A DNA stretch of 64,000 bases. Origin: an uncultured Tateyamaria sp. (lineage in GTDB: Bacteria > Pseudomonadota > Alphaproteobacteria > Rhodobacterales > Rhodobacteraceae). Both the position numbers and the translations under genes were made by a program. Below the pieces are notes generated by a model. The model was not told the DNA's origin. It ran no database searches and saw only the letters and a program-made list of their open reading frames with translations. Below are positions 27,579-45,427 of the stretch, in pieces (position 1 is the first letter of the stretch; the number at the start of each line of letters is the position of its first letter). The DNA lies in NCBI RefSeq assembly GCF_947488715.1, contig NZ_CANLAG010000002.1, positions 372,001 to 436,000 of the forward strand, in the 5' to 3' direction.

Positions 27579-28584
27579 GCGCCCGCACATCCAGCTGTGC
27601 CAGCACATCGAGACCCTGCATGTTCAGGAAATGCAGGATGTCGATGAACACCCAGTTCTCGGCCAGCTTGTCGCCGTCGCGCCGGTAGAAATCGACCACC
27701 CGCATGTCGGCCTTGGCCCCCGAAGGCGGCAGGCCCATGTAGGGGCCGGTGCATTCCATGGTCAGGTTCGGCCAGCCAAAGAAACCGCCATAGTTCCCCT
27801 CGGCCATGCGGCAGATGTGACCGTTGAAGGTGCGCGCGCCCAGTTGGGTGCGGAACGGGCGCTGGTGCTGTTCGATGTAGCGGTCAATTGTGTAGGTCGC
27901 GCCGATGCCTGTGGGCCCCCACCAGATCATGTCGTCGTGCCAGTCGCGCGCCAGCTCGTCCTCGGGTGCGGGGGGCGTGGGCAGGGCGTTGGCCGCCGTG
28001 ATGGCGTCCATCATCGCGTGGATACGATCCAGCGTTTTGGTCCCCACCGCCGGATCCTGATCGTCAAAGAGGAGGCCGTCATGGGTCATTGGCCCCGGCT
28101 GGACCAGTTGCGCACCGGTCATGCCGGGCAGGGGGTATTGACCCGCCTGCGCCATCAAGTGCAGCAGATCGACAAAGAGCGCCTGTTCGACAATGCGGTC
28201 GCCCTCGACGCGCGAAAATTCGGCATAGCGGACCATGACGATCTTGCGCGTCGGCTGAATGCCCAGAAACGGCGCATCAAAGAGCGCCATCAGATGCCCC
28301 ATGGAGGCCACCCATATGCCACCACCCTCATCGAGGTGGTTGTGCCCGGCAAAGAAGATGTCCTGCCGCCGCTGCACCCGCGACATGGCTGTCAGGAAGG
28401 GCGCCCAGAACGTCGTGGCGATGGCGTCCGGCCCGGTCTGGACGTGGAAGGGGTGCATCCCGCGCCAGAGCGTGTCAGGTGTCATGTGCGTGGCCAGCGC
28501 GTTCGCAACGGTATCGGGGTTGGCACGCGCAAGGGCGGCGTGGTGGGCCTGCACGCAGGCCTTGGCACGGGAAAGATCGGTCAT
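27574..28584 (-). CDS. tandem SnoaL-like (NTF2-fold) protein, predicted ester cyclase type
   Basis: A 336-residue protein with two SnoaL-like alpha+beta-barrel units. The first covers about residues 5-165, with TLWRGMHPFHVQTGPDAIATTFWAPFLTAM. The second covers about 185-330, with DDMIWWGPTGIGATYTIDRYIEQHQRPFR and DFYRRDGDKLAENWVFIDILHFLNMQG. The final motif, in which RRDGDKLAENW precedes a hydrophobic strand, is the usual C-terminal signature of polyketide-cyclase-like SnoaL proteins. There is no signal peptide. Substrate unknown. It and the next lipoprotein gene sit inverted between ntrX and trkA. Confidence 0.82.
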   Translation of the reverse strand: MTDLSRAKACVQAHHAALARANPDTVANALATHMTPDTLWRGMHPFHVQTGPDAIATTFWAPFLTAMSRVQRRQDIFFAGHNHLDEGGGIWVASMGHLMALFDAPFLGIQPTRKIVMVRYAEFSRVEGDRIVEQALFVDLLHLMAQAGQYPLPGMTGAQLVQPGPMTHDGLLFDDQDPAVGTKTLDRIHAMMDAITAANALPTPPAPEDELARDWHDDMIWWGPTGIGATYTIDRYIEQHQRPFRTQLGARTFNGHICRMAEGNYGGFFGWPNLTMECTGPYMGLPPSGAKADMRVVDFYRRDGDKLAENWVFIDILHFLNMQGLDVLAQLDVRAR

Positions 28585-28586
28585 GG

Positions 28587-29042
28587 TTATCCTTGGGTGA
28601 CGATCCGCAATCCGCCATCTGTGCGGATGGCACAGCTTTGGGCGTTGAGGCGGGGTAAGACGGGGGATGGGCCGGGGGGTGCGGCCTGGGCCACGGCGGG
28701 TGGGCAGGCGGGCAATTCGACGGGGGAATAGCCGCGATCACCCATGCACTGCGCCTTGACCCGTTTGCGCAAGTCGGCGTTCACGTCGACGGAATAGATG
28801 TCGCCCGGCACCCAGACGCCGCCGTTGGTGTGGCAGTGACCGGCGGCGTTGCACACCCGGTGCGGCACATAGCGCGGGGCGTGTTGCCGGGTCTGGTGTG
28901 CAACTGGCGCGTCGCGCAGGGCGGCCACGTCACAACGGGTGTTGTCGCGGTCAAGTTCGGCAAAGCTGACGCCCTCGGCATAGTAGGTCGACACCGGCAG
29001 GCATCCGCAGAGAACAAGGGGAAGAAGGGCAAGCGCGCGCAT
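28587..29042 (-). CDS. putative small lipoprotein
   Basis: A 151-residue protein whose first residues MRALALLPLVLCGC fit a short signal with a loose lipobox (LCGC). The rest has several Cys and His residues (RVCNAAGHCHTNGG, RVKAQCMGDRGYSPVELPACPP) that may form disulfides or bind metal; RGYSPVELPACPP resembles the C-terminal motif of other small roseobacter lipoproteins. It ends two bases before the start of the SnoaL-like gene, so the two are probably one unit. Function unknown. Confidence 0.7.
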   Translation of the reverse strand: MRALALLPLVLCGCLPVSTYYAEGVSFAELDRDNTRCDVAALRDAPVAHQTRQHAPRYVPHRVCNAAGHCHTNGGVWVPGDIYSVDVNADLRKRVKAQCMGDRGYSPVELPACPPAVAQAAPPGPSPVLPRLNAQSCAIRTDGGLRIVTQG

Positions 29043-29194
29043 AGGTGCAGAGTGGCGAAGGACGTGTGATTTGGCAATCGTGGTTGCGACGTTTCAGAGT
29101 GACTTTGCGCAAGCGTTGACCGTCTGGCCCGTGTCTGTCATGGCTGGATGCTGAGACGGGCGACGCGCAGGTGCGCCGTAACGCGGAGACAGGG

Positions 29195-30571
29195 ATGAAG
29201 GTCATCATCTGCGGGGCAGGCCAGGTGGGGTGGCAGATTGCCCGCCATCTGTCGGGCGAGCGCAACGACGTGACGGTGGTCGACAATGACCCCGATCTGG
29301 TGCGCCGGGCCACGGATACGCTGGATGTTCAGGGGGTTGCGGGCTTTGCCAGCTATCCTGACATTCTGGACCGGGCGGGTGCGCGTGACGCAGACATGAT
29401 CATTGCCGCGACCCATTCGGACGAGGTGAACATGGTCACCTGTCAGGTGGCGCATTCGGTATTTGGCATCAATCGCAAGATCGCGCGGCTGCGCAGTCAG
29501 TCCTATCTGACGGCAATCTATTCGGACCTGTATCGCCGCGATCACATGCCCATCGACGTGGTGATTTCGCCCGAGCGGGAGGTGGCGGCGGCGGCTTTGC
29601 AGCGGCTGAGCGCGCCTGCGGCGTTTGACACGGAGTTGTTCATTGACGGGCAGGCGCAGCTCTTGGGCATTGCGCTGGACGAGGATTGTCCGGTGTTGAA
29701 CACGCCGTTGCGGCAGTTGACCGACCTGTTTTCCACCCTGCGGGTTGTGGTTGTTGGCGTGCGCCGGGAGGGGACGCTGTTTGCGCCCGAGGCGTCGGAT
29801 CAGCTTTTTGCCGGAGACGAGGCCTATGTCTTTGCGCATGTGGATGATGTGCCGCGTGCGATGGAGGTGTTTGGCAAGACGATGGCCAAGCAGGAGCGTG
29901 TTGTGCTGGTGGGTGGCGGCAATGTCGGCCTGGCTGTGGCGCGCGCGCTGGAAAAGCGCACGACGCGGGTGCGGGCCAAGGTGATCGAGCGCAACCGCAA
30001 GTGCGCCGAGCTGGCCGCCGAGGCGTTGGAGCGGACCATTGTGCTGAACGGTGATGGCTTGGATGTGGCGCTGCTCGCCGAGGCGGGCGTGGCGCGGGCG
30101 GACGCGATGCTGGCGGTTACGGATGATGACAAGACCAACATGCTGGCTGCGGTGCGCGCCAAGTCCGAGGGCTGTCCCTATGCGATTGCGTTGATCAATG
30201 ATCCGACGCTGGTGCCGATGATGGGGCCCTTGGGCATTGACGCCTATATCAACCCGCGTGCCACGACAGTGAGTTCGATCCTGCGCCATATCCGGCATGG
30301 GCGGGTGCGGTCGGTCTATTCCATCGGCGATGCGGATGCCGAGGTGATCGAGGCCGAAGTGCTGTCGACCTCGCCCATGGCGGGGCGTCGCATCAACGAG
30401 ATTGATTTTCCCGAAGGCGTTTTGGTCGGTGCCGTGCGCAAGGGTGACACGGTGATGCGCCCGGTCGGCAAGACGCGCATCGATGAGGGTGATGTCATTG
30501 CGCTCTTTGCGCTGACCAAGGATGTGCCGGAGGTGGAGCGCCTGATGCAGGTGTCCATCGACTTTTTCTGA
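29195..30571 (+). CDS. trkA: Trk potassium uptake regulatory protein TrkA
   Basis: Peripheral cytoplasmic NAD-binding subunit of the Trk potassium transporter. The ATG at 29195 (MKVIICGAGQVGWQIARHLSGE) follows GGAGACAGGG and gives 458 residues; eight extra upstream residues are possible but not typical. Two RCK/KTN units are clear from the Rossmann motifs GAGQVGWQIA near the start and GGGNVGLAVA near residue 240, each followed by a TrkA-C domain. It overlaps trkH by one base (TGATG). Confidence 0.96.
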   Translation: MKVIICGAGQVGWQIARHLSGERNDVTVVDNDPDLVRRATDTLDVQGVAGFASYPDILDRAGARDADMIIAATHSDEVNMVTCQVAHSVFGINRKIARLRSQSYLTAIYSDLYRRDHMPIDVVISPEREVAAAALQRLSAPAAFDTELFIDGQAQLLGIALDEDCPVLNTPLRQLTDLFSTLRVVVVGVRREGTLFAPEASDQLFAGDEAYVFAHVDDVPRAMEVFGKTMAKQERVVLVGGGNVGLAVARALEKRTTRVRAKVIERNRKCAELAAEALERTIVLNGDGLDVALLAEAGVARADAMLAVTDDDKTNMLAAVRAKSEGCPYAIALINDPTLVPMMGPLGIDAYINPRATTVSSILRHIRHGRVRSVYSIGDADAEVIEAEVLSTSPMAGRRINEIDFPEGVLVGAVRKGDTVMRPVGKTRIDEGDVIALFALTKDVPEVERLMQVSIDFF

Positions 30572-32118
30572 TGGCTGCGCGCGGGGCGGTGCGGCCGGGC
30601 TTTGGTGCGACGCTGTTGGCGTTGCCGCTGTTCCTGCTTTTGGTTGGTGTGTTTGCGGTGTCTATGCTGGTGCCTGCGGTCTATGGCGGTGTGGTGCGCG
30701 AATTGGCGACGGCGCGGGCGTTTTTGTACAGTGGTGTGCTGGGGGTCGTGATCTTTGCGCTGATTGGGCTGGCCCATGCAGGGCGTGATCCGCGGCATGG
30801 GGCGCTTGGGCCGCTGGTTTCGCTCTTTTCGGCCTTTGTGATCCTGCCGGCGTTGCTGGCGATCCCGTTCTACGAGGCGGTGCGCACGACGACCTTTCTG
30901 AATGCCTATGTCGAGATGGTGAGTGCGATCACCACGACAGGGGCCACCATGTTCGACGATCCGGGCCGGTTGAACGGGCCGCTGCATCTGTGGCGCGCGC
31001 AGGTGGCGTGGATGGGGGGGCTGATGATGTGGATTGCCGCCTCTGCGATCCTCGCGCCGCTCAACCTGGGCGGGTTCGAAGTGACGGCGCGGGCCGAGCC
31101 GGGGCGTAGTGCCCGCCGCGAGACGGGCATGACAGCCCCCGAGGTGCGGGTGCGGATTGCCAAGGTCAGCGCGGTTTTGATCCCGATCTACGTGGCGCTG
31201 ACGCTGTTGTTGTGGATCCTGCTGGCGGTGGGGGGCGACAGTGCGTTGGTGGCGATCTGTCACGCGATGTCGATCATGGCGACCTCTGGCATCTCGCCTG
31301 TGGGCGGTTTGACCGGGACGGGCGCGGGCATGGCCGGAGAGGCGGTCATGTTGCTCTTTATGCTCTTTGCGCTGTCGCGGCTGACCTTTTCCACCGACAC
31401 GGTTACGGCGGAGGCCGGGGGGCTCAAGCGTGACCCGGAATTCCGCATCGGCCTGGCACTGATGATTGTCGTGCCGCTGGTGTTGTTTGTCCGGCATTTC
31501 CTCGGCGCCTTTGATGTCTCTGCCGAAAGCGAGCTGGAGGACGCAGCCCGCGCGCTTTGGGGCAGTGCGTTTACGGTCCTGTCCTTTCTGACCACAACCG
31601 GCTTTGCCTCGGCTTTCTGGGGCGATGCGCAGGCGTGGTCGGGCCTTGAGACACCGGGCCTGCTGCTGATGGGGTTGGCGCTGGTGGGCGGCGGTGTGGC
31701 GACCACAGCGGGGGGCGTCAAATTGCTGAGGGTCTTTGCGCTCTACCTGAACGGCCTGCGCGAGATGGAGCGGCTGGTGCATCCCTCATCTGTCAGCGGC
31801 GCGGGTCCTATGGGGCGCCGATTGCAAAAGGACGGGGCGTTTATTGCATGGATCTTTTTCATGCTCTTTGCCCTCAGCCTCGCACTGATCAGCATCCTGT
31901 TGTCCGCGGCAGGCACCGATTTTGACACCGCATTGGTCATCGCCATTGCGGGCCTGTCCACAACGGGACCGCTGTTGGATCACGCCAGCAGCGACCCCAT
32001 TGCGCTGATCGAACTGGGGGGGGCGGCCAAGGCGATTTTTGTGGCCGCGATGATCCTTGGACGGCTTGAGACATTGGCGATCATCGCGCTTTTCACACCG
32101 GATTTGTGGCGCGCTTAG
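30571..32118 (+). CDS. trkH: Trk potassium uptake channel TrkH
   Basis: A 515-residue inner-membrane potassium channel subunit with four M1-P-M2-like repeats. Selectivity-filter-type segments follow the pattern T-T/S-G: SAITTTGATMF, SIMATSGISPVGG, SFLTTTGFASAF and AGLSTTGPLLDH. It is translated with trkA (one-base overlap). A weak terminator follows before hfq. Confidence 0.95.
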   Translation: MAARGAVRPGFGATLLALPLFLLLVGVFAVSMLVPAVYGGVVRELATARAFLYSGVLGVVIFALIGLAHAGRDPRHGALGPLVSLFSAFVILPALLAIPFYEAVRTTTFLNAYVEMVSAITTTGATMFDDPGRLNGPLHLWRAQVAWMGGLMMWIAASAILAPLNLGGFEVTARAEPGRSARRETGMTAPEVRVRIAKVSAVLIPIYVALTLLLWILLAVGGDSALVAICHAMSIMATSGISPVGGLTGTGAGMAGEAVMLLFMLFALSRLTFSTDTVTAEAGGLKRDPEFRIGLALMIVVPLVLFVRHFLGAFDVSAESELEDAARALWGSAFTVLSFLTTTGFASAFWGDAQAWSGLETPGLLLMGLALVGGGVATTAGGVKLLRVFALYLNGLREMERLVHPSSVSGAGPMGRRLQKDGAFIAWIFFMLFALSLALISILLSAAGTDFDTALVIAIAGLSTTGPLLDHASSDPIALIELGGAAKAIFVAAMILGRLETLAIIALFTPDLWRA

Positions 32119-32135
32119 GCGGGGTGTCGCGGTAG

Positions 32136-32156
32136 GTCCGTAACGGACTGTTTTTT
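32136..32156 (+). terminator. probable terminator after trkH
   Basis: GTCCG (32136-32140) pairs with CGGAC (32144-32148) around TAA, followed by TG and six T. The stem is short but the T run is good and it starts 18 bases after the trkH stop. hfq would then need its own promoter in the following 90 bases. Confidence 0.5.
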
Positions 32157-32247
32157 GGGCTGGAATCTTCCCAGTCCCCGCGACATACTCACGCCGGAGG
32201 GACGGTCTGATCCGCAGGCCTAAGCAAGAAAAAAAGGGTTAACCGAC

Positions 32248-32487
32248 ATGGCTTCGGACCGACAGAATTTGCAGGATGCATTCCTGAATCACGTGCGCAA
32301 AACCAAAGTGCCCGTGACCATTTTTTTGATTAATGGCGTTAAATTGCAGGGTGTTATCACGTGGTTCGACAACTTTTGTGTGTTGTTGCGCCGGGATGGC
32401 CAAAGCCAGCTGGTGTACAAGCACGCGATCTCGACGATCATGCCTAGCCAGCCCATCAGCCTTTATGAGGGCGAAGACGCGTCCTGA
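32248..32487 (+). CDS. hfq: RNA chaperone Hfq
   Basis: A 79-residue Sm-fold hexamer that pairs small RNAs with mRNAs. The Sm1 motif ([42 protein letters not shown]) and Sm2 motif ([12 protein letters not shown]) are complete, and the short C-terminal tail is typical of alphaproteobacteria. The stop overlaps the hflX start by one base. Confidence 0.98.
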
Positions 32488-33758
32488 TGGGTGAGTTGCC
32501 GGAGACAACCCGCGCCTGGGTGCTCCATCCTGATATAAAATCCGATCCTGACCGGCGCGAAGCCAAATTCGCGCTGGCCGAAGCCGTGTCTTTGGCCCAT
32601 GCGATGCCCGAACTTGAGGTCGTGGGCAGCGAGATTGTGCCGCTGCCGCGCGTGCGGGCCGGATTGCTGTTCGGGTCGGGCAAGATCGAGGAACTGGCGC
32701 AGCGGCTGAAAGAGGCCGAGGTTGAGCTGGTGTTGATCGATGGCCCCGTCACCCCGGTGCAGCAGCGCAACCTTGAAAAGGCGTGGAAGGTCAAATTGCT
32801 GGACCGGACGGGCCTGATCCTCGAGATTTTCAGCGACCGGGCCGCCACGCGCGAAGGCGTGTTGCAGGTCGAGATGGCCGCGCTGTCCTACCAGCGGACG
32901 CGGCTGGTGCGGGCCTGGACCCACCTTGAGCGCCAGCGCGGCGGTCTGGGGTTTGTGGGTGGTCCCGGCGAGACGCAGATCGAGGCGGACCGGCGTGCCA
33001 TCGACACGCAACTGGTGCGCCTGCGGCGGCAGTTAGACAAGGTGGTCAAGACGCGCACGTTGCACCGTGCGGCGCGAGCCAAGGTGCCGTATCCGATTGT
33101 GGCGCTGGTGGGCTACACCAACGCGGGCAAGTCGACACTGTTCAACCGTCTCACTGGCGCTGATGTGATGGCCAAGGACATGCTCTTTGCCACGCTGGAC
33201 CCGACGATGCGGCGGGTCGAATTGGAGGACGGGCCGGAGGTGATCCTGTCGGACACCGTTGGGTTCATTTCCGATTTGCCGACCGAATTGGTCGCGGCGT
33301 TCCGCGCGACGCTCGAAGAGGTGCTGGCGGCGGATGTGATCTTGCATGTGCGCGACATCTCGCACCCCGAGACCGAGGCGCAGGCCGAGGATGTGATGAC
33401 CATCCTTGGCGATCTGGGCGTGGGCGAGGGGCGCACGATGTTCGAGGTCTGGAACAAGGTGGACCTGCTGGACGACGACGCGGCAGAGGCCGTCCGCGCC
33501 CGTGCAGCGCGCGAGGACGGTGTGTTTGCGATGTCGGCCATCACAGGCGAGGGGATACCCGCGCTCTTGGGGCAGGTGGCCGAGACTTTGCAGGGTGCGG
33601 TGACCCAGGAGATGCTGGTGTTGCCCTATGCCGACGGGCGCAAACGCGCGTGGCTGTTCGAGCAGGACGTGGTGCAGGGCGAGCGGCAGGGCGAGGACGG
33701 GTTCGAGTTCGACGTGCGCTGGACCGCGATCCAGAAGGCGCGGTTCGAGGGGCTTTAG
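32487..33758 (+). CDS. hflX: ribosome-associated GTPase HflX
   Basis: A 423-residue GTPase that binds and can split stalled or heat-damaged ribosomes. The N-terminal HflX domain (GLLFGSGKIEELAQRLKEAEVELVLIDGPVTPVQQRNLEKAW) is followed by a helical linker (GGPGETQIEADRR) and the G domain: G1 GYTNAGKST, G3 DTVGFISDLP, G4 NKVD. It follows hfq with one base of overlap, as in many proteobacteria. Confidence 0.97.
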   Translation: MGELPETTRAWVLHPDIKSDPDRREAKFALAEAVSLAHAMPELEVVGSEIVPLPRVRAGLLFGSGKIEELAQRLKEAEVELVLIDGPVTPVQQRNLEKAWKVKLLDRTGLILEIFSDRAATREGVLQVEMAALSYQRTRLVRAWTHLERQRGGLGFVGGPGETQIEADRRAIDTQLVRLRRQLDKVVKTRTLHRAARAKVPYPIVALVGYTNAGKSTLFNRLTGADVMAKDMLFATLDPTMRRVELEDGPEVILSDTVGFISDLPTELVAAFRATLEEVLAADVILHVRDISHPETEAQAEDVMTILGDLGVGEGRTMFEVWNKVDLLDDDAAEAVRARAAREDGVFAMSAITGEGIPALLGQVAETLQGAVTQEMLVLPYADGRKRAWLFEQDVVQGERQGEDGFEFDVRWTAIQKARFEGL

Positions 33759-33900
33759 CCGTGGTTCAACTTGGTCGTCTTCGTTGAAATAAACTGTGTA
33801 ACCAGACCGCTGCGGTGAGTGAAAATCCGGCGTAGCCTCGTCGAGGCGGTTGTGTTGTTCGGACTGTTTGAACGGCAGTTGATGATCGTTCGGGCCGTTG

Positions 33901-34716
33901 TCAGGTGTCGGCGCGTTTCATCTGTTGGTGTTCGTCCTCGACCAGACCGATTTTCCAATAGCCTGATATATAGATGTCTTCGCGTGCCAGCTGTTTTTCT
34001 TGTGTCAGAAAGGCCCGTAGTGATCTGATAACACTGGATTCTCCGGCGATGCAGGTTTGTACCCGACCTGTTGGCCACTCAAGAGACCGGATAAGAGTTT
34101 CCTGCGCCGTAGAGGCGGTGTGCGGATCAGGATGGATCAGCCAATGGACGTCAATGCCTTGGGGCATGTCGATGGTCTGGCGGTCCTGCTCCGATGTGAT
34201 TTCAAAGATCGCAACACCTTTTGCGTCGCGCGGCATGGCTTCGAGGGTTGCGGCGGCGACGGGAATGGCGGACGGGTCAGCGGCGATCAGATACCAGTCG
34301 GCATCAAAATGCGTGACCTTGGGACCACTTGGCCCCGCAAACCCCAGAAAGCTGCCCGCTTTGGCATGTGATGCCCAGCGTGACGCTTGCCCTTCATCGC
34401 CGTGTGCCACGAAATCGATGCTGAGTTCGCGCGTTTCCGCGTCAAAATTGCGGACTGTAAACGTGCGCCGAACCGGGGTTGGTCCATTGAGCAGACGGGC
34501 GGCGAAACTGTCTTTGGCCTCGTCCATCTCGGGAAACATAAGCTTGCAGTTTCCGCCGTTCCTGCCTTCAGGGAATGCGTCCAGCTCTGGTCCTGCAAAG
34601 ACGACACGGATCATGTTGGGCGTCAAATACCATGCTTTCGTGACTGTCAGCAGCCGAACGGATGAGCGGCCTGTGGTCTTGCGCATTGCTTGTTTTATCC
34701 TTTTTATCAACGCCAT
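33901..34716 (-). CDS. siderophore-interacting FAD-dependent ferric reductase-like protein
   Basis: A 271-residue protein of the SIP/ViuB family, which releases iron from ferric siderophores in the cytoplasm using FAD and NAD(P)H. Visible features are the flavin-binding VRRTFTVRNF (R-x-F/Y-T-V-R), GSFLGFAGPSGP at the phosphate loop, a SIP C-terminal domain with WYLIAADPSAIPVAAATLEAMP, and the family-typical ending GYWKIGLVEDEHQQMKR. No siderophore receptor or ABC importer is nearby; instead it is last in a unit with three SnoaL-fold proteins, 15 bases after the previous gene. Lower GC than neighbours. Confidence 0.88.
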   Translation of the reverse strand: MALIKRIKQAMRKTTGRSSVRLLTVTKAWYLTPNMIRVVFAGPELDAFPEGRNGGNCKLMFPEMDEAKDSFAARLLNGPTPVRRTFTVRNFDAETRELSIDFVAHGDEGQASRWASHAKAGSFLGFAGPSGPKVTHFDADWYLIAADPSAIPVAAATLEAMPRDAKGVAIFEITSEQDRQTIDMPQGIDVHWLIHPDPHTASTAQETLIRSLEWPTGRVQTCIAGESSVIRSLRAFLTQEKQLAREDIYISGYWKIGLVEDEHQQMKRADT

Positions 34717-34731
34717 ACGGGTATGCCCTTG

Positions 34732-35499
34732 TCAGAACTTGCCGGAGTTTCCCCAGGCCTCGCGGGGGCTGATTTCCTCTTCGTTCATCCAGTGCTCAAC
34801 AATCTTGCCATCGGCAATGCGGTAGAGGTCGAACACAGCGATGTCCTTGCCGCCTGCGTGTCGCTTGCCATAGGTCGTAACGAAATCGCCCTGGCCGATG
34901 AGTTGGAACATCATTTCGTATGACCCTGCCGCGTCCGAGTTCAACCACTCTGCCATGCCGGCTTGTCCGGCTCCGATCGTGGCCGCGTGTTGAACCAGAT
35001 CGTCGGCTATAAAGTTCGCGATCTTGTCGGTGCCCTGCTCCTGCAACACTTGTTTGGTAAATTCGAGAACCAGCGATTTGCTGGCGGCTGTGTTGGCGCT
35101 CGTGTCAACCATGCGGCTTCCTGACACCATGCCAGCGCCCGAGACTGTTTCCTCGACAAAAGGCGCAATCGTGTCCCAGTGTTCCAGGATCAGACCGTCC
35201 GGGTCCGTATAGAACATGTCCATCGTGACCCATTTTGCGGCGCCATCGTTCAGGGATTGGTAGGCGCTGCAAAACACCCAAGGCCCGTCTTCGAAAATGC
35301 GGACAATCTCTATCTCTCGTTTTGGATTGCGCTGAACGAACGGTTCAAAGAACGCGAGGAACCCTTCGACACCGTCGGCGACACCTGTCGAATGCTGCGT
35401 GTAGCGGTGGCCGGTGTTTTTCGTGACGGCCTCACGAATGTTTCCGCCAGCGATACCGTCCAAGTAGATACCGCGCACGTTGTCCAAACCTTTTCCCAT
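34732..35499 (-). CDS. tandem SnoaL-like (NTF2-fold) protein
   Basis: The start at 35499 follows AGGTGAGGA and gives 255 residues; a longer frame upstream is not supported. Two NTF2-fold units are visible. The first, about residues 7-125, has GHRYTQHSTGVADGVEGFLAFF and MFYTDPDGLILEHWDTI. The second, about 135-250, has DDLVQHAATIGAGQAGMAEWL and FDLYRIADGKIVEHWMNEEE. Both halves end in the D/x-D-G-x-I-x-E-H-W signature of SnoaL-like proteins, so it arose by internal duplication. There is no signal peptide, unlike its two upstream partners. Function unknown. Confidence 0.85.
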   Translation of the reverse strand: MGKGLDNVRGIYLDGIAGGNIREAVTKNTGHRYTQHSTGVADGVEGFLAFFEPFVQRNPKREIEIVRIFEDGPWVFCSAYQSLNDGAAKWVTMDMFYTDPDGLILEHWDTIAPFVEETVSGAGMVSGSRMVDTSANTAASKSLVLEFTKQVLQEQGTDKIANFIADDLVQHAATIGAGQAGMAEWLNSDAAGSYEMMFQLIGQGDFVTTYGKRHAGGKDIAVFDLYRIADGKIVEHWMNEEEISPREAWGNSGKF

Positions 35500-35560
35500 G
35501 ACGTCCTCACCTTTTACGGTCGGCAGGCTGGCACCGCTGGTGCCGCCCGCCGATATCAAT

Positions 35561-36052
35561 TCAACCGTGATAGGCTTTGCTGACGGCATAGCTGTCTTCG
35601 AACCAGTTCCAAAGAACCACCTCGCCGTCGCGTACTTTGGCGCGCAGGGCGAAGGTGAATTCGCCAATCTCCTTGCCGGATTTCGTGGTGATCCCGTTCA
35701 TGTTACCGAACACGGCAACCGTGTCACCGGAGGCAAGAACATCCGTGTTCTCCCATTTGGTCGTTTGGAAGTTTTCGCCAAAGATGGGGAGGAAGGCAAA
35801 GATCTCGTCCTTGCCGTTCCACGGTCCGATCCAGGGCAGTGTCGCGTCGCCTTCGTTGTGCCACACCATGTCGTCCGCCATCAGGTTGGACATTGCATCA
35901 GTGTCGCCCGCGCCCATGGCTGCCATCAGTGCCATGACGACGTCGAGGGTTGCCTGACTGGTTTCGTCCACGCCTTGCGCACCTGCCTTGCTTGCGATTG
36001 CAAGCGCGAGTGCTGCGCCGATGGATGTTTTGAGAACTGTTCTTCGCTGCAT
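35561..36052 (-). CDS. Tat-exported SnoaL-like protein
   Basis: A 163-residue protein with a twin-arginine signal (QRRTVLKTSIGAALALAIASKAGAQG), suggesting folded export to the periplasm. The mature part is one SnoaL-like domain: TLDVVMALMAAMGAGDTDAMSNLMADDMVWHNEGD, then WNGKDEIFAFLPIFGENF, and VRDGEVVLWNWFEDSYAVSKAY. Tat export of an NTF2-fold protein suggests a bound cofactor or folding in the cytoplasm, but none is evident. Spacing to its neighbours is about 60 bases on each side, in the same orientation. Confidence 0.83.
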   Translation of the reverse strand: MQRRTVLKTSIGAALALAIASKAGAQGVDETSQATLDVVMALMAAMGAGDTDAMSNLMADDMVWHNEGDATLPWIGPWNGKDEIFAFLPIFGENFQTTKWENTDVLASGDTVAVFGNMNGITTKSGKEIGEFTFALRAKVRDGEVVLWNWFEDSYAVSKAYHG

Positions 36053-36111
36053 TTCGTGGTCCTTTGGGATGTGGCGGACCGTTGTTCGGCCCCCCTGTTT
36101 GCGTGAGAGGG

Positions 36112-36588
36112 CTATTTGCCGGAAAGTTGCTGAAGCGCGGTGGCCCAGTCTTCGACGTGATAGGTGCGGATGATTTTGCCGGCTTCCAGCTCGTGGATAT
36201 CGATGGTCAGGATGTCAAAGCTGCGCCCTTGGCCGTCGACGCCAAAGAAGGGGCCAACGGGTGTGCCGGTCGCACGGCTGCGTACGATGACTGTGTCGCC
36301 ATCCTGGTGCATGTCCTGAATGGCCCATTCGATGTCGGGCATGAGTTGCGCAAAGCCGCCCATTTGACCCAGAAAGGCCGCACGGCTTTTGGCTTTGCCC
36401 GAGTAGTCGCCGATGCTTTCCCAGCCTTCTGATGTGGCACCCTGAAACGCTTCGACGTGTTCGGCGTTGCCGGGATCGCTGAGCAGATCATAGAAAACCG
36501 TCACGGTTGCTTTGTTGTCTGCAAAAACGCTTGTGGCGCAGGCTGCAAAAGCGACCGTTGCCGCGCCAAGAAGGTGTTTGATGTGCAT
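36112..36588 (-). CDS. exported SnoaL-like protein
   Basis: The ATG at 36588 is chosen because it begins a signal peptide (MHIKHLLGAATVAFAACATSVFA); a longer in-frame start would overlap the divergent LysR gene. The 158-residue protein has one SnoaL-like domain: TVTVFYDLLSDPGNAEHVEAFQGATSEGWESIG, a middle MPDIEWAIQDMHQDGDTVIVRSRATGTPVGPFFG and the ending DIHELEAGKIIRTYHVEDW. That ending is the usual ester-cyclase-like signature. It is the promoter-proximal gene of the SnoaL/SIP unit, 123 bases from the divergent LysR gene. Confidence 0.85.
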   Translation of the reverse strand: MHIKHLLGAATVAFAACATSVFADNKATVTVFYDLLSDPGNAEHVEAFQGATSEGWESIGDYSGKAKSRAAFLGQMGGFAQLMPDIEWAIQDMHQDGDTVIVRSRATGTPVGPFFGVDGQGRSFDILTIDIHELEAGKIIRTYHVEDWATALQQLSGK

Positions 36589-36647
36589 GAGAAAAGACCT
36601 CTGAATGTTCCGTTGCGTCGTCAGATTTCGCTTGTGGGGAACGAGGT

Positions 36648-36687
36648 ATAGCCGTTCTATGATCCGAAAAATGGGTTGTTTCCGGAT
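36648..36687. promoter_or_regulatory. inverted repeats between LysR gene and SnoaL cluster
   Basis: ATAG-N5-CTAT (36648-36660) lies within a T-N11-A frame typical of LysR-type binding sites. A second dyad, ATCCG (36662-36666) with CGGAT (36683-36687), follows. Both fall in the 123-base gap between divergent genes, the usual place for LysR autoregulation and target control. Confidence 0.5.
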
Positions 36688-36711
36688 GGGACTGTTCGGC
36701 TGAGGTGAATA

Positions 36712-37599
36712 ATGATTGATAAGCTTCGCAGCATTGCGGTCTTTGCGGCTGTCGTTGATCAAGGGTCTTTTCGGGCCGCGGCGTTGACCCTTGGGCTTGC
36801 GCCCTCGCGCGTCAGCGAAGTCGTTTCGCAGTTGGAAAAGGACCTTGGGGTGACGTTGCTCTATCGCTCAACCCGTCAGCTATCGCTGACGAATGAAGGG
36901 CGCCGTTTGAAGGTTGCCGCTGATGATATGCTGGGCGCTGTTGAAACGGGGCTGGATGCCATCAGCCCGTTGTCGGGCGAGCCGTCCGGTGCCTTGAAAG
37001 TCACTGTGCCTGCCTTTGTGACGCAAACGGAATTGATGGACGATTTTGCGCGCTTCGCCAGCACCTATCCGAAGGTTGAGCTGGATTTCCATTTTTCTGA
37101 TCGACCGTCGGATGTGATACGGGATGGGTTTGACGTCGCGATCAGGGCGGGGTGGCTGGATGACAGCGATCTGATGGTGCGCACGATTGGCCACGTAGAC
37201 AGGTTTCTGGTGGCCAGTCCACAGTATTACGACGCCATGCCTACGCCAACGGATCCGAGCGACCTTGAGGACTGGCAATGGATCAGATTTGTCATGCGTA
37301 CGGATCAAACCGAGATGACGTCGAAGGATGGACAAGTGGTCAAAGTGCTTGGGAAATCGAGCGTTTCCGTCAACTCAGCCAGTGCGCTGTACGAGTTTTC
37401 TGTCCGTGGGCTTGGACTGACGGCCATTCCGGAACATCTGGCTTGCCGTGGGTTTGATCGGGGCGAACTGATCCACGTTTTGCCGGAATGGACGATGAGC
37501 CCGTTGGGGCTGCACGCGATTTGGCCAAACCAGTCGCGCCGGGAAAACCTCACCACACTCTTTGTGCGGTTTCTTGCAGGCAAGGCTCAGAATTCTTGA
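36712..37599 (+). CDS. LysR-family transcriptional regulator
   Basis: A 295-residue LysR regulator. The N-terminal winged helix-turn-helix is MIDKLRSIAVFAAVVDQGSFRAAALTLGLAPSRVSEVVSQLEKDLGVTLLYRSTRQLSLTNEG. The effector domain covers about residues 90-290 (ALKVTVPAFVTQTELMDDFARF...). The Arg-Ser-Thr-Arg segment and spacing are standard. GAGGTG lies before the ATG. It is divergent from the SnoaL/SIP unit, which it most likely controls; the effector is unknown. Confidence 0.93.
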   Translation: MIDKLRSIAVFAAVVDQGSFRAAALTLGLAPSRVSEVVSQLEKDLGVTLLYRSTRQLSLTNEGRRLKVAADDMLGAVETGLDAISPLSGEPSGALKVTVPAFVTQTELMDDFARFASTYPKVELDFHFSDRPSDVIRDGFDVAIRAGWLDDSDLMVRTIGHVDRFLVASPQYYDAMPTPTDPSDLEDWQWIRFVMRTDQTEMTSKDGQVVKVLGKSSVSVNSASALYEFSVRGLGLTAIPEHLACRGFDRGELIHVLPEWTMSPLGLHAIWPNQSRRENLTTLFVRFLAGKAQNS

Positions 37600-37687
37600 G
37601 ACATTCCGCGTTGTTGGGGCGTGCGTGGCGTCGAAGGTTTGCGCCCTGCGCACCGCCAATTCCGTCTGAGGCGATGAGAGGGTGATC

Positions 37688-38251
37688 CTAAACCGTGCGC
37701 CATTGGCCGGGTGCCAGATCGCCGAGGGACCAGTCGCCGATGGACATGCGGATCAGCCGTAACGTGGGAAAGCCGACATGTGCTGTCATGCGGCGGACCT
37801 GACGGTTGCGGCCTTCGGCTATGGTCAGTTCGAGCCAACTGTCGGGGACGGATTTGCGCACGCGGATTGGCGGGTCGCGGTCCCAGAGCGTTGGCGGGTT
37901 TACGGCGCGGGCCTTGGCCGGGCGGGTGGGGCCGTCGCGCAGGATGACGCCAGCGCGCAGGCGGTCGAGCGCGTCTTGGGTCACTGTACCTTCGACCTGG
38001 GCGAGGTAGGTTTTGGGGGCTTTGTATTTCGGGTCGGCGATGCGGGCCTGAAGTTTGCCGTCGCTGGTCAGGATCATCAGCCCTTCGCTGTCGCGGTCGA
38101 GCCGGCCTGCGGGGTAGACGCCGGGCAGATCGATATAGGCCGACAGCGTCGGACGGGTGGACCCTTGGGTGCCTTTGTCGGTGAACTGCGACAGCACGCC
38201 GAAGGGTTTGTTGAACAGGATCGTGGTCAAGGTTTCAGACCGGGTTTGCAT
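37688..38251 (-). CDS. 23S rRNA pseudouridine synthase, RluE-like
   Basis: A 187-residue RsuA/RluE-family pseudouridine synthase without the N-terminal S4 domain, as in RluE (23S U2457). The catalytic Asp lies in [19 protein letters not shown]; other motifs are [29 protein letters not shown] and [23 protein letters not shown]. It is 25 bases downstream of the penicillin-acylase-family gene on the same strand. RluE is the best match, but related specificities cannot be excluded. Confidence 0.88.
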
Positions 38252-38276
38252 ATTTGTGGAACAATGAAGGGTGGGG

Positions 38277-40742
38277 TCATTGCAGGGGTTCGAGCCGGGT
38301 GACGCCCACGGCGGCGGCGCGGGCGAGCCCTTCGTCGAGCGACATGGGGATGTATTCGCCGCGGCGCCAAAGCTGTGCGAGGTCGTCGTAGTGGCGCGAC
38401 AGGAAGTGGCCGGATTGTCCGGTGGAGATCACAAAGACCGAGCTGTTGGGGTCGGCAAAGTCGTAGACGCCCCGGTAACCCGCGCCGTGCACGTTTTCGA
38501 AAGGTGCGTCACCGGTGCCGCGTGTGAGGCCGCGTTGCAGGGTGTTGTCGCCGCCGGATGTGGATTGCCGGATGTTGACGAAGAAGCGCAGGACGGGGAC
38601 CTGGCCCAGCACGGGGTGATCGTGGGTCGCCTGATGCGCGTCGCCCCAGCGCAGCGATTCCAGTTGGGTGCCCCAGGTTTCACCGATCCAGATCAGCGCG
38701 TCGTCCAACGCCAGCCGGGCCATGTCGGCGCAGGTTTCGACCGGGGCGGACTGGCGCACGTCGCACCAGATCGCCGCCCCGTCCACGTTGCGGAAGGCGC
38801 GTTCGATAAAGAGCGGCTCCACGTGGGTGAGTGCGTCGGTCATTGGACCCAGTTCGTCGCGCGCCATGCGGTCCTGCAGGCTGCGCAGCCACGCGGCGTA
38901 GATCAGTGGTTCGGGCCAGTGTTCGTTCATTTCGCCGTTCCACTCGGCCAGCAGCGCCAGCGCGCGCTGGCGTTGGCGTTCGGCGGTGCCTGCGGGGGCG
39001 GCCTCGCCGGTGAACCACAGCTCGGACCCGATCAGGGGCAGGAGCGAGCGGGCGGTGAAGGAGACGGTGTCGAGCTGCGCCTCGATGAAGCTGTCGCGGG
39101 TGTGGACCTCGCGGGTTTGCATCAGGCGACGCCAGCGTTGGACCCTTTGCGTGTCGCCCCAGTGAAAACTGACATGGTTGGGAAAGGGGCGGTCGACCGT
39201 CTTGTTGTTGGTGTTGCCGAGGATGCCGCCCACGGGCGAGACAAAGCCGGGGTTGGAGGCATAGGGCAAACGGCCCTGCCAACGGTTTTCGGGGCGCCAT
39301 CCGAGCGCGGGCATGCGCCCCTGGCTTTGGTGTGCGGCGTCGCGGCGTGGGATCGCGCCGATGGTCTTCATGGCGATGCTGCCACGGTCGACCAGTGTGA
39401 GGTTCTGGGCGGGGGCGATGTATCCCTTAGATGCAGTGATCGCCTCGGCCACTGTTTGCGCGTGCATGACCCCCATACCGGCCGTCAACGAGGTGTCATT
39501 CGGGCTGAGCACGGTCCAGCTGAGGGCGGCCACGTGGCCGGGGGGCGTGATGGTTTCGAGGTTGCGGAAGCTGCCGGGCATGACGGGGCCATTGTCGGTC
39601 CAGCGCAGGGTGAGGGTGACGGGATCCTGACCGTCGATTTCGACGATGGAGGCGCGTGTTTCAAACTCTTTCCAGCCGTCGGGCGTGCGGTATTGGCTTG
39701 GGTTTTCGGGGTTCAGCTCTTCGATCAGTACGTCCTGGTCGTCGACATAGGCGCTGGTCAGGCCCCAGCCCAGACGCTGTGACCGGCCTGTCAGCACCAG
39801 TGGCACGCCGGGGATGGAGCCGCCGATCACGCCGCCAGTGCGCAATTCGAGGCGGGCCAGATACCATATGGCGGGGGCAGAAAAGCCCAAGTGTGGGTCA
39901 TTGGCAAGCAACGTCCCACCGGATGCCGAGCGCGAGGCCGCGGCGGCCCATGCGTTGGATGCCCCGGCCAAGCCACGTGGCTGGAAGGGGGACAAAGGGT
40001 GCGCGGTGGTTGCCGCCTGTGCAAACCGTGGTTCGGTGTTGGGCACAAGTGCGGCGTATTCCGGCAGGCTGGCGATCCCGTCGCCCGGCACGTCGGGCAG
40101 GATGTCGGCCAGCCGATCCGGATCGTCGAGCACAAGCGACATGCGGGCGCGCAGCACCTCTTCGGTCATGTGGCCGGACAGTTGCAGGGCCATGAGTTTG
40201 GCAATCGCGATGCTGTCGGCGGGGCGCCATGGGGCCAGCGGCGCGTTGAAGAGGAACATTTCCGGTGCGCCGCGTCCCAGCGCCTCGGCGTTGATCTGAT
40301 CGAGGCGGGCATTGACCCCCGCGGCATAGGCATCCAGTGCAGCGCGGGTGCGGGCATCCTGGGCCTCAACCGACTGGACGGAGAGGCGGTAGATGTCGAG
40401 CCTGCGCACAAAGCTGTCGACATCCAGTGTGGCGGTGCCGAACACCTCGCTCAGGCGGCCCTGCGCGGTGCGGCGCAGCATCATCATTTGCCACAGGCGA
40501 TCCTGTGCGTGGGCAAAGCCCAGGCCGTGGAACACATCCGTGTCGGTGTCCCCGAAGATATGCGGCACGTTGGCATTGTCGCGCACGATCTCGACCGGGG
40601 CGGTGATGTTGGGCACACGGACAACGGCGTCGTAGTTGGGCAGGGACCGGGAGGCGAGGTAATAGACCATCGCAACGCCCAGCACGGCCAGCACGATCAG
40701 CGCCGCTGTGATCCGGACCAACCATTGAAAGACGACTGCCAT
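38277..40742 (-). CDS. penicillin acylase (Ntn-hydrolase) family protein
   Basis: An 821-residue precursor starting at 40742, after AAGAGG, with an N-terminal membrane segment ([22 protein letters not shown]). It shows the penicillin-amidase plan: alpha-chain motif [37 protein letters not shown], then the autocleavage site GAS-NAWA with Ser262 as the new N-terminal nucleophile of the beta chain, and [21 protein letters not shown]. Relatives hydrolyse beta-lactam side chains or acyl-homoserine lactones (PvdQ/QuiP type). In a roseobacter, quorum-signal degradation or turnover is plausible but unproven. The open frame extends well upstream (to 41435), antisense to the next gene, and is not coding there. 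Confidence 0.92.
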
Positions 40743-40862
40743 ATGTGCCTCTTGCTTGTTGCCCGGTGGCGTTGACCCTTGGCTCATGACTGTTAGGTAG
40801 GCAGGCAGGGAAGCGCAAGCCGTCAGCTTGTGCAAATTGCGATGACCACGTGAGGGAAAGAC

Positions 40863-41735
40863 ATGGCGAAACTGGCGTTTCTGGGACTGGGTGTGATGGG
40901 TGCGCCCATGGCGGGGCATTTGCAGAAGGCGGGCCATGACGTCACGGTGTACAACCGTACCGCGTCGCGCGCGCAGGATTGGGTCGACACCTACGGTGGT
41001 GCCATGGCGACCACGCCACGTGCAGCGGCTGAGGGGGCGGAGTTTGTTCTGGCCTGTGTCGGCAATGACGATGATTTGCGGTCGGTCTGTGTGGGGGATG
41101 ACGGGGCCTTTGCCGGGATGGCGAGTGGCACGGTGTTTGTCGATCACACGACGGTTTCTGCCAAGGTCACGGCCGAGCTGTATGCGCAGGCGGATACGGC
41201 GCATATCAGTTTCGTGGATGCGCCGATTTCCGGTGGGCAAGCGGGGGCCGAGAATGCGGCGCTGTCGATCATGTGCGGCGGTGACGAGGGCGCCTATGCG
41301 CGGGCCGAGCCGATCCTTGCGGCCTATGCCAAGCTGTGCCGCCGCATCGGCGAGAGCGGGGCCGGTCAGATGACCAAGATGTGCAACCAGATCGCCATCG
41401 CGGGCCTGGTGCAGGGGCTGAGCGAGGCGCTGCATTTCGCGGAAAAGGCAGGTTTGGACGGGCGTGCAGTGGTTGAAGTGATCAGCCAGGGGGCCGCTGG
41501 ATCATGGCAGATGGCCAACCGGTACGAGACCATGCTGGACGACGCGTTTGAGCACGGGTTTGCGGTGGACTGGATGCGCAAGGATCTGGGCATTTGCCTG
41601 GATACGGCAGATGAGAACGGCGCGAGCCTGCCGGTCACGGCGCTGGTCGATCAATTCTATAAGGACGTGCAAAAGATGGGCGGCGGGCGTTGGGATACGT
41701 CGAGCCTGTTCAAGCGGTTGCGCGCCATGGGATGA
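40863..41735 (+). CDS. 3-hydroxyisobutyrate-dehydrogenase-family oxidoreductase
   Basis: A 290-residue NAD(P)-dependent beta-hydroxyacid dehydrogenase. The Rossmann motif GLGVMGAPMAGHLQKAGHDVTVYNRT, the substrate-binding signature FVDAPISGGQAGAENAALSIMCGG and the catalytic-Lys region GAGQMTKMCNQIAIAG are intact. Family members act on 3-hydroxyisobutyrate, tartronate semialdehyde or glyoxylate-type substrates; which one is not decided by sequence. It is divergent from the penicillin-acylase gene and 54 bases before the PAS gene. Confidence 0.9.
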   Translation: MAKLAFLGLGVMGAPMAGHLQKAGHDVTVYNRTASRAQDWVDTYGGAMATTPRAAAEGAEFVLACVGNDDDLRSVCVGDDGAFAGMASGTVFVDHTTVSAKVTAELYAQADTAHISFVDAPISGGQAGAENAALSIMCGGDEGAYARAEPILAAYAKLCRRIGESGAGQMTKMCNQIAIAGLVQGLSEALHFAEKAGLDGRAVVEVISQGAAGSWQMANRYETMLDDAFEHGFAVDWMRKDLGICLDTADENGASLPVTALVDQFYKDVQKMGGGRWDTSSLFKRLRAMG

Positions 41736-41789
41736 GGCTGCGCGTTTAGCTGTTGGCAACACAATCGGTGCATAGTGAGGCCGTGGCGC

Positions 41790-43064
41790 ATGTCGCGCCG
41801 GGTGCCTCTTGCCATGCTTCACGCCCTGTCGACTGCTCGTGAAACCGCGGAGTTCGCGATGGCGGACCTGTTCTTTTCGCGCACGGATCGGCGGGGTGTC
41901 ATCCAGTCTGGCAATGACACGTTTCAGCGGATTTCCGGCTTTGAGTGGCAGGACCTGCTGGGCGCGCCGCACCGCGTGGTGCGCCATCCGGGCATGCCCA
42001 AGGGCGTGTTCTTTATGCTGTGGGCCGCTCTGAAACAGGAACGCCCCATTGGGGCCTATGTGGTAAACCAGACGCAGGATGGGCAGGCGTACACAGTGTT
42101 CGCAGTGATCATGCCGGTCGAGGACGGGTATCTGTCGGTCCGGTTCAAGCCAAGCACCGATCACGCGGTCCGGGTCAAGGCGCTCTATGATGCGGTGACG
42201 GCCTGCGAGAAGGACGGTTCCATATCCGCCGAAGAGAGTGCCGCGCGTTTGATGGAGGGTATCCGCGACATGGGGTTTCCCGACTATGACGCGTTCATGT
42301 CGGGTGTGTTGGTGGACGAAATGACAGCCCGCAACACCCATCTGTCGCGTCACAAGCTGGTGCGGCTGCAGTCCCTGTCACGTGTGGAACAGGGTCTGGC
42401 CTGTTTGCAGGTCGAGGCGCAAAGCGTACGCGCGCTGTTTGCCGCATCCTCGCAAATTCCGCACAACCTGAGGCTTCAGGCGGCGCGATTGGAAGGGCGC
42501 GAGGGGCCGATCAGCGTCATTTCCAGCAACCACCAGCGCACGTCAGACGCGTTCGAGGCATCGCTTGGCGCCTTTCTCGAAGCCTCGACGCTGGGCGCGG
42601 CCCCGCTTCGCGAGGCGTCGTTCCTGATGGCCACGGCAAAGCTGATGACCGAAGTGGTCGAAACGCTGGACCCGCCGGGGCCGCAATCGCATGCGCGTCA
42701 GACAGAGGACCGGAGCCATCTTGTGTCGCTGGCCGCGCAATATGTCGACCGGGCCACGCGTGCGGTGTCGGATGTGCGCAGGCAGACGGATTTCTTTGAG
42801 CGGGCGTTGCAGGATATGCAGCGGATGGTGTTCGGCCTCGAGCTGACCCGCACCATGTGTTCCATCGAACAGTCACGCGCGACCGGGGACACGTCCGGTC
42901 TGGACGAGATTGTCGACAAGCTAAAGCAGGCGGAAATGCAGTTAAGCGCCATCATGACACGGATCAGTCACGCGGTGTCAGACATGATGGATGGCGCAGA
43001 GCGGCTGAGCCGGTCCGCGCCTCTGTGTGTCGTATCAGGGCAGGCGACGGAAACCGCCGCCTGA
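41790..43064 (+). CDS. soluble Aer-like PAS-domain protein
   Basis: The ATG at 41790 has GAGG upstream; a GTG at 41775 is possible. The 424-residue protein has an N-terminal PAS domain (about residues 30-115) very like that of the E. coli aerotaxis sensor Aer: FFSRTDRRGVIQSGNDTFQRISGFEWQDLLGAPHRVVRHPGMPKGVFFMLW. The rest is helical and soluble, with no membrane segment, no HAMP and no recognisable MCP signalling hairpin. The C-terminal half has long amphipathic helices. It may sense redox or oxygen through FAD and signal to an unknown partner. Confidence 0.85.
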   Translation: MSRRVPLAMLHALSTARETAEFAMADLFFSRTDRRGVIQSGNDTFQRISGFEWQDLLGAPHRVVRHPGMPKGVFFMLWAALKQERPIGAYVVNQTQDGQAYTVFAVIMPVEDGYLSVRFKPSTDHAVRVKALYDAVTACEKDGSISAEESAARLMEGIRDMGFPDYDAFMSGVLVDEMTARNTHLSRHKLVRLQSLSRVEQGLACLQVEAQSVRALFAASSQIPHNLRLQAARLEGREGPISVISSNHQRTSDAFEASLGAFLEASTLGAAPLREASFLMATAKLMTEVVETLDPPGPQSHARQTEDRSHLVSLAAQYVDRATRAVSDVRRQTDFFERALQDMQRMVFGLELTRTMCSIEQSRATGDTSGLDEIVDKLKQAEMQLSAIMTRISHAVSDMMDGAERLSRSAPLCVVSGQATETAA

Positions 43065-43073
43065 TCCCGAGCA

Positions 43074-43640
43074 TCAGGGAATGATGCGGGTGTATTTGGT
43101 GCCTTCGAGCGTGGCACCGATCCGCAGGCCCGCGCGGGCAAAGACCGCCGCCAGCACCGGGGACAGGGCCGTGGTGGTGTCAGCCGCCACGCTGTCGCCC
43201 TGATCGGACACCACATATTCGAGGTCCGCACCAGCCGCCCAGCCAGGGGAACGGCGGAAATCGGTGAGCGCGTCCTGGGTCATAAAGAACAACACGTGGG
43301 CAAATTGCTGTGCGCCGATTTGCAGGCCACCTGACCCTTTGAACACCGAATAATAGTCCACGGTCACGTCATTGACGAGAAGTGCGCCACGGCCATATGC
43401 GCCGCCCAGGCCCAGACCGGCCTCGGTCACTAGTGGCATGACAAGCATGCCGTTGGCCTTTTGCGCCAGCGACACCGTGTTGGGATAGCTGCGATACATC
43501 TCTTCCAGCGTTGCGTTGACCCGCGCGTCGATCAGGGTGGACCCCCGGCTGCCGACACCGTTTCCGCATGCGGCAAGCACGCCCGTGCTGGCCAGCGCCC
43601 CTGCGGCGAACGCGCGCCGCGAGATACCATTCGTTTTCAT
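43074..43640 (-). CDS. SYLF/YSC84-domain lipoprotein
   Basis: The start at 43640 gives a 188-residue protein with both a twin-arginine motif (SRRAFAAGAL) and a lipobox (STGVLAAC), so it is probably a Tat-exported lipoprotein. The mature domain matches the SYLF/YSC84 (lipid-binding) family: LEEMYRSYPNTVSLAQKANGMLVMPLVTEAGLGLGGAYGRGALLV, YSVFKGSGGLQIGAQQFAHVLFFMTQDAL and RAGLRIGATLEGTKYTRI. Bacterial members are common but poorly understood. It converges with the PAS gene, 9 bases apart. Confidence 0.88.
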   Translation of the reverse strand: MKTNGISRRAFAAGALASTGVLAACGNGVGSRGSTLIDARVNATLEEMYRSYPNTVSLAQKANGMLVMPLVTEAGLGLGGAYGRGALLVNDVTVDYYSVFKGSGGLQIGAQQFAHVLFFMTQDALTDFRRSPGWAAGADLEYVVSDQGDSVAADTTTALSPVLAAVFARAGLRIGATLEGTKYTRIIP

Positions 43641-43757
43641 GTTGAACCGCCTGTACTGCTCAATGTGGTGCGCGGTTTGCCCGCGCTTGTGGGCAGGTAT
43701 ACGCCGATTGCGCGCACCTGTCACCACTTTGCAGCGCTTTGGCAGGTTTCTGCCGGA

Positions 43758-45427
<1,670 letters not shown>

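Follow-up and report, generated by a model that had tools for sequence, protein, structure and literature searches.

Enzymes of the NTF2 fold are known for isomerisation, hydration or dehydration, and ring opening or closure. MsrQ, a part of an envelope repair system, takes its electrons from a flavin reductase. In one published report (PMC11264596), the name "ester cyclase" is given to admL, of a polyketide cluster. The DNA analysed here is a stretch of 64,000 nucleotides (the window) from an uncultured Tateyamaria sp. (contig NZ_CANLAG010000002.1, positions 372,001 to 436,000). Its minus strand encodes a secreted SnoaL protein (gene 1, 36112-36588), a SnoaL_2/NTF2 protein with a twin-arginine translocation (Tat) signal (gene 2, 35561-36052; Tat-SnoaL hereafter), a cytoplasmic tandem SnoaL/NTF2 protein without signal (gene 3, 34732-35499) and a SIP/ViuB-type flavin adenine dinucleotide (FAD) reductase (gene 4, 33901-34716; SIP hereafter), and the gene of a LysR-type regulator diverges from them on the plus strand (36712-37599). 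A preliminary description of the window had listed these five genes in this order with a divergent LysR, which was confirmed, with gaps of 59, 61 and 15 bases inside the operon and of 123 bases between the LysR gene and gene 1. The block is identified by sequence comparison as one version of a recurrent, mobile, LysR-controlled modular operon in which Tat-SnoaL is the core gene, and the association of its genes is more than chance because of its recurrence, a clade-specific LysR and a common intergenic element.

A search of GTDB genome contigs with a Tat-SnoaL profile gave 192 relatives, and the best 80 loci were analysed, all of which contain Tat-SnoaL by construction of the sample. Their flanks are of 8 kb at most, and 72 have enough upstream DNA for LysR scoring according to a crude test. 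By record title, 58 are from Alpha- and 22 from Gammaproteobacteria, with the caution that contigs of metagenome-assembled genomes may be misbinned. A divergent LysR gene was found within 450 bp in 61 of the 80 loci, with a median gap of 122, and in strict chains a secreted single SnoaL gene adjoins that of Tat-SnoaL in 44 of them. The other members of the strict chains were DUF2218 (33 loci), a luciferase-domain protein (26), an NmrA-type reductase (24), an MsrQ-like protein (21), a secreted tandem SnoaL (16), the cytoplasmic tandem SnoaL (7) and SIP (3, or 7 when SIP is counted anywhere in the locus). The secreted single and the secreted tandem SnoaL were never found in the same chain among the 80, so that they behave as if they shared one slot.

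The window's order of SnoaL, Tat-SnoaL and tandem SnoaL was detected in 3 of the 80 loci, and its exact set of four genes in none of them nor in any other locus examined, many of which reach only 1.5 kb to each side, being found in the window only. From the co-occurrence of four families originally proposed, the pairing of genes 1 and 2 was thus retained, and a fixed four-family system was rejected, as the tandem SnoaL, SIP and other slots are swapped among the loci. A tandem SnoaL gene beside a SIP gene does recur, in L063/G001 (the same region, taken as one case), L064, G063, G180 and G297, with the tandem gene truncated in G063 and interrupted by an internal stop in G180; after the SIP gene, G001 has an MsrQ-like gene and G297 an MsrQ-like match of 41 residues.

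Plasmid copies of the module were found in Sulfitobacter, Dinoroseobacter, Roseobacter and Loktanella. In a family-level sample, the Tat-SnoaL profile matched 17 of 295 genomes at E ≤ 1e-12 (own genome included, two of the matches weak), and Tat-SnoaL was present in 6 of 20 genomes of the genus, own included. The tree of Tat-SnoaL needs at least four changes between Alpha- and Gammaproteobacteria on well-supported branches, which suggests, misbinning apart, that the module has been transferred between the classes. A pair of arginines was present within the first 16 residues in 65 of the 71 full-length Tat-SnoaL rows (from 72 rows, of which 69 belong to the 80 loci, two to plasmids and one to the window), in good agreement with the two compartments that had been proposed for these proteins.

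The phylogeny of the regulators was also studied. All 72 module-labelled LysR rows, window included, fell into a single clade (support 100/99) with five rows that had been labelled "far" before tree building, and 20 of the 21 own-genome LysRs and 6 of the 7 neighbouring LysRs fell outside it, so that the operon-like layout with a divergent regulator, already noted in the preliminary description, was found to go with a module-specific LysR. The own-genome exception (L184_own) sits on a branch of length 6.5 and is likely to be misplaced; the neighbouring one (L062, with the label "other") falls within the clade owing to a gene for a Tat hydrolase that stands between its LysR and Tat-SnoaL genes. 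The 21 own-genome sequences came from 43 LysR matches, of which 30 had loci (one being that of the window) and 28 gave an open reading frame (ORF), seven being left out of the tree because BLAST did not match them to the window LysR. When a module-LysR profile was run against the 295 genomes, 35 LysR places were obtained, 30 of them with loci. At E ≤ 1e-105, 22 of 23 LysR loci adjoin module genes, window included, with L226 adjoining a DUF2218 remnant only, L218 counted through the larger region L249, and L237 without module genes. Among the seven weaker loci none had module genes by the seeds used; L242 has, some 800 bp from its LysR gene, a SnoaL-looking ORF that went unscored. The LysRs just under the module score (L240, L243 and L245) diverge, by eye, from genes of LysE-like exporters and possibly represent a sister system. 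Kynureninase-looking ORFs, also recognised by eye, are near the module LysR in L110 (9605-10807) and L237 (2531-3874), a possible hint at aromatic inducers.

The window LysR carries the Pfam domains LysR_substrate (6.5e-33) and HTH_1 (1.8e-18), and together with its divergent neighbour and, by sequence, a dyad of the T-N11-A type, this is the arrangement of a LysR with a divergent target. The intergenic region between lysR and the operon (36589-36711) contains CCGAACAGT and TTC-N9-GAA beside the lysR start. Among 63 intergenic regions, CCGAACAGT was found in 19, window included and with an offset from the lysR start that is 12 in every case, against a mean of 0.03 in shuffled sequences, and TTC-N9-GAA at the lysR end in 17 against 0.18 expected, in shuffles that preserve base composition only and ignore the kinship of the compared rows.

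The block (33760-37696) looks inserted, because it lies exactly between hflX and rluE, genes that nearly adjoin in the closest relative, G300 (HflX 98% identical), where the alignment with the window stops at 33759, resumes at 37697 and leaves about 16 bases between the two parts. This empty site supports the acquisition proposed before. Twelve congeners in which the hflX region is visible (L139-L150) were compared: in six (L139, L140, L143, L144, L147 and L148) the distance from hflX to rluE is about 120 bases or less and none of the genes of the block is present, two (L146 and L150) have one different small ORF between both genes, and four (L141, L142, L145 and L149) show different genes over the 1.5 kb that follow hflX. 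Because congeners hold differing content there, the interval may be an integration spot, perhaps a hotspot; its cargo was seen to vary from none to a small ORF or large membrane-protein-like ORFs. G300 holds another version of the module elsewhere, with Tat-SnoaL, a metallo-hydrolase, tandem SnoaL and LysR genes all on one strand.

The lower GC content that had been noticed by eye was borne out by calculation, with 56.5% for 33761-37600 against a mean of 62.2% (standard deviation 1.9 points) in 3.7-kb segments of the window, the lowest of which fall in the block, and with GC values at third codon positions of 0.60-0.70 for its genes against 0.84 for hflX and 0.80 for rluE. This low GC favours gain of the block over its loss in relatives. 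As a hallmark of the module, low GC was rejected: over 53 related loci, the mean difference between module and flank was -0.3 points, so that it marks the arrival of the window block only.

Concerning the individual proteins, genes 1 to 3 have SnoaL-family domains above cut-off. That of gene 1 matches Pfam SnoaL (7e-19), with a Sec-type signal judged by eye, and that of gene 2 matches SnoaL_2 (8.8e-17), with the N-terminus MQRRTVLKTS and a TAT_signal match (0.016) under the cut-off of that family. Gene 3 matches SnoaL (1e-13) and SnoaL_2 (1.6e-13) over two stretches each, and QH and EHW are near-invariant in both halves. The structure prediction that had been recommended for the SnoaL proteins was run for genes 2 and 3, and the AlphaFold2 models obtained (predicted local distance difference test scores of 86.9 and 94.9) show an NTF2 fold and two NTF2-like halves, respectively. 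These predicted folds are near those of TerC, ketosteroid isomerases and polyketide cyclases, with around 14-26% identity to solved relatives. The three proteins share about 20% identity in their mutual alignment, and the term "paralogous-looking" applied to them before was overstated. Gene 2 as an iota-carbonic anhydrase, an idea raised by a weak TIGR02246 match, was dropped after inspection of the motif by eye only. Gene 4 has both domains of the SIP/ViuB family (SIP 1.8e-32, FAD_binding_9 4.6e-29) and its R-x-[YF]-T-x-R motif, and its best PDB match is 7xlz (2.9e-44). NCBIfam gave no curated name above cut-off for the SnoaL or SIP proteins, and an Rfam scan of 28000-44000 gave no RNA at gathering score.

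The divergent LysR gene and the genes of the exported NTF2 proteins (Tat-SnoaL, usually accompanied by a second secreted one) are joined by exchangeable redox or hydrolytic parts. The swappable slots are those of DUF2218, the NmrA/QOR2-like reductase, the MsrQ-like haem protein, the luciferase-domain protein, the tandem SnoaL and SIP. The best solved sequence matches of the NmrA-type partner are triphenylmethane reductase and YtfG. Further proteins were observed in a few loci: a twin-arginine protein with Dioxygenase_C (intradiol dioxygenase) between Tat-SnoaL and tandem SnoaL at 9576-10343 of L063 (the same region in L249), and a twin-arginine protein of the metallo-beta-lactamase fold (Lactamase_B) beside Tat-SnoaL in two congeners (L247, 3785-4666; L248, 3272-4183) and in L062 (5199-6098). 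In L054, L249 and L254, two secreted-looking genes (around 410 and 350 residues) lie between LysR and DUF2218, the second one with Big_5/bMG1 matches in L054.

The architecture, the regulator clade, the common intergenic element, the export signals and the insertion site are seen in the sequence itself. Regarding function, the explanation that we favour, at a probability of about 0.4, is an inducible system, working in periplasm and cytosol, by which a putative aromatic, quinone- or polyketide-like compound is transformed or detoxified, because the partner families (NmrA-type reductase, MsrQ-like, intradiol-dioxygenase-like protein and metallo-hydrolase) indicate reduction and cleavage of organic molecules. 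For inducer sensing, joint transcription and enzyme activity we infer that LysR would sense the small organic molecule and induce the set from the common promoter region, and that the exported NTF2 proteins would bind the compound in the periplasm and convert it by one of the reactions named above for the fold. The cytosolic tandem SnoaL and SIP would then complete or reduce whatever enters, with SIP acting as an NAD(P)H-flavin reductase in the place of the QOR2-like reductase or MsrQ-like haem protein of other versions, and the net outcome would be the detoxification or the use of the compound. Several points weigh against this proposal. Fold likeness by itself demonstrates no function. The NmrA, MsrQ-like and dioxygenase-like partners, from which the aromatic or quinone hint comes, are absent from the window operon, nor does the genome itself encode a close copy of the NmrA reductase, the single match there showing 31% identity over 135 residues (E 2.7e-6). 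The conserved intergenic element overlaps the ribosome-binding site of lysR, which lies at that same end and may account for part of the conservation, and the rows compared are related. In all, the earlier interpretation is upheld for the layout, the acquisition and the compartments, and not for a fixed four-family system.

Processing of iron chelates, with SIP freeing the iron and the SnoaL proteins binding or opening the organic ligand, is an unlikely alternative. It agrees with the function of the SIP family and with the Ferric_reduct and cytochrome b561 domains found among the partners of relatives, membrane proteins which would there free the iron as SIP does, and on a Sulfitobacter dubius plasmid a same-clade SIP (68%) is encoded next to a TonB receptor and an ABC transporter for iron. 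However, SIP is present in only 7 of the 80 loci, a TonB receptor in none of them (one TonB seed, flanks up to 8 kb) and iron-permease-like genes in only one (L067), several kb away (two permease seeds). In the window unit, no adjacent TonB receptor or iron-chelate ABC transporter was found, in accordance with the preliminary description.

Quite unlikely is a defence of the envelope against oxidants such as hypohalous acid, in which the exported proteins and their MsrQ-like partners would repair or protect periplasmic targets. The presence of MsrQ-like proteins in 21 of the 80 chains and the envelope repair role of MsrQ speak for it, but no gene for a molybdoenzyme of the MsrP type was noticed among the modules, the match of the relatives' proteins is under the MsrQ cut-off, NTF2 enzymes are not known as repair enzymes and the window operon lacks an MsrQ-like gene. 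Less probable still is a new kind of LysR-induced trans-envelope system for processing small molecules, in which Tat-exported NTF2 enzymes would replace the molybdoenzyme of MsrPQ in the periplasm and a SIP-type flavin reductase would deliver reducing power from the cytosol via an MsrQ-like haem protein, which for the window SIP would have to be encoded elsewhere in the genome. Two MsrQ-like genes do exist outside the block, L136 (contig C6) and L137 (contig C3); by eye, the first has an MsrP-looking neighbour and the second is beside an FtsH-like gene.

A biosynthetic cluster for a polyketide or other specialised metabolite, with the SnoaL proteins as cyclases, is suggested by the family name and by PDB matches such as IdmH, but it is very improbable given that the sampled neighbours are housekeeping genes (hflX, rluE, penicillin amidase, mfd and trkH) and that export would be unusual for cyclases. 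Finally, the finding of the exact four-gene set in the window only could point to unrelated neighbours assembled without joint function, an explanation that can practically be set aside in view of the 44 loci with secreted SnoaL and Tat-SnoaL, the 3 with tandem SnoaL in addition, the recurrent pairs of tandem SnoaL and SIP described above and the single LysR clade.

No description of the module was found in the open-access literature searched. The families are all known, and the regulated module built around exported NTF2 proteins is seemingly undescribed there. Marine bacteria of the Roseobacter and Granulosicoccus types have in common this mobile set of exported NTF2-fold proteins, which comes with its own regulator. 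If the substrate is indeed an aromatic, quinone- or polyketide-like compound, the module would open a new way to learn how surface-living marine bacteria handle the chemistry of algae and neighbours; the inducer could be sought directly through its LysR.

We compared the module with known systems. With SnoaL-like cyclases and NTF2 enzymes (IdmH, SnoL, TerC, ketosteroid isomerase and limonene epoxide hydrolase) the window proteins have the fold and the Pfam families in common, whereas two of the three differ in their export signals, and identity to solved relatives is low. The window SIP has the domains and the FAD motif of ferric-siderophore reductases of the SIP/ViuB type, but differs from them in its place, a SnoaL operon that lacks genes for siderophore import. 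The likeness to MsrPQ is in a Tat-exported partner plus, in relatives of the module, an MsrQ-like membrane protein, whereas the module has no molybdoenzyme and neither MsrP nor MsrQ is encoded in the window operon. Among curated regulators, the best NCBIfam matches of the window LysR are YafC (157.6 bits, cut-off 470) and AaeR (132.2 bits, cut-off 425). As in LysR-regulated catabolic or stress operons, the regulator diverges from genes of small-molecule enzymes, but the module of the window is set apart by a LysR clade of its own and by exported NTF2 proteins as its core.

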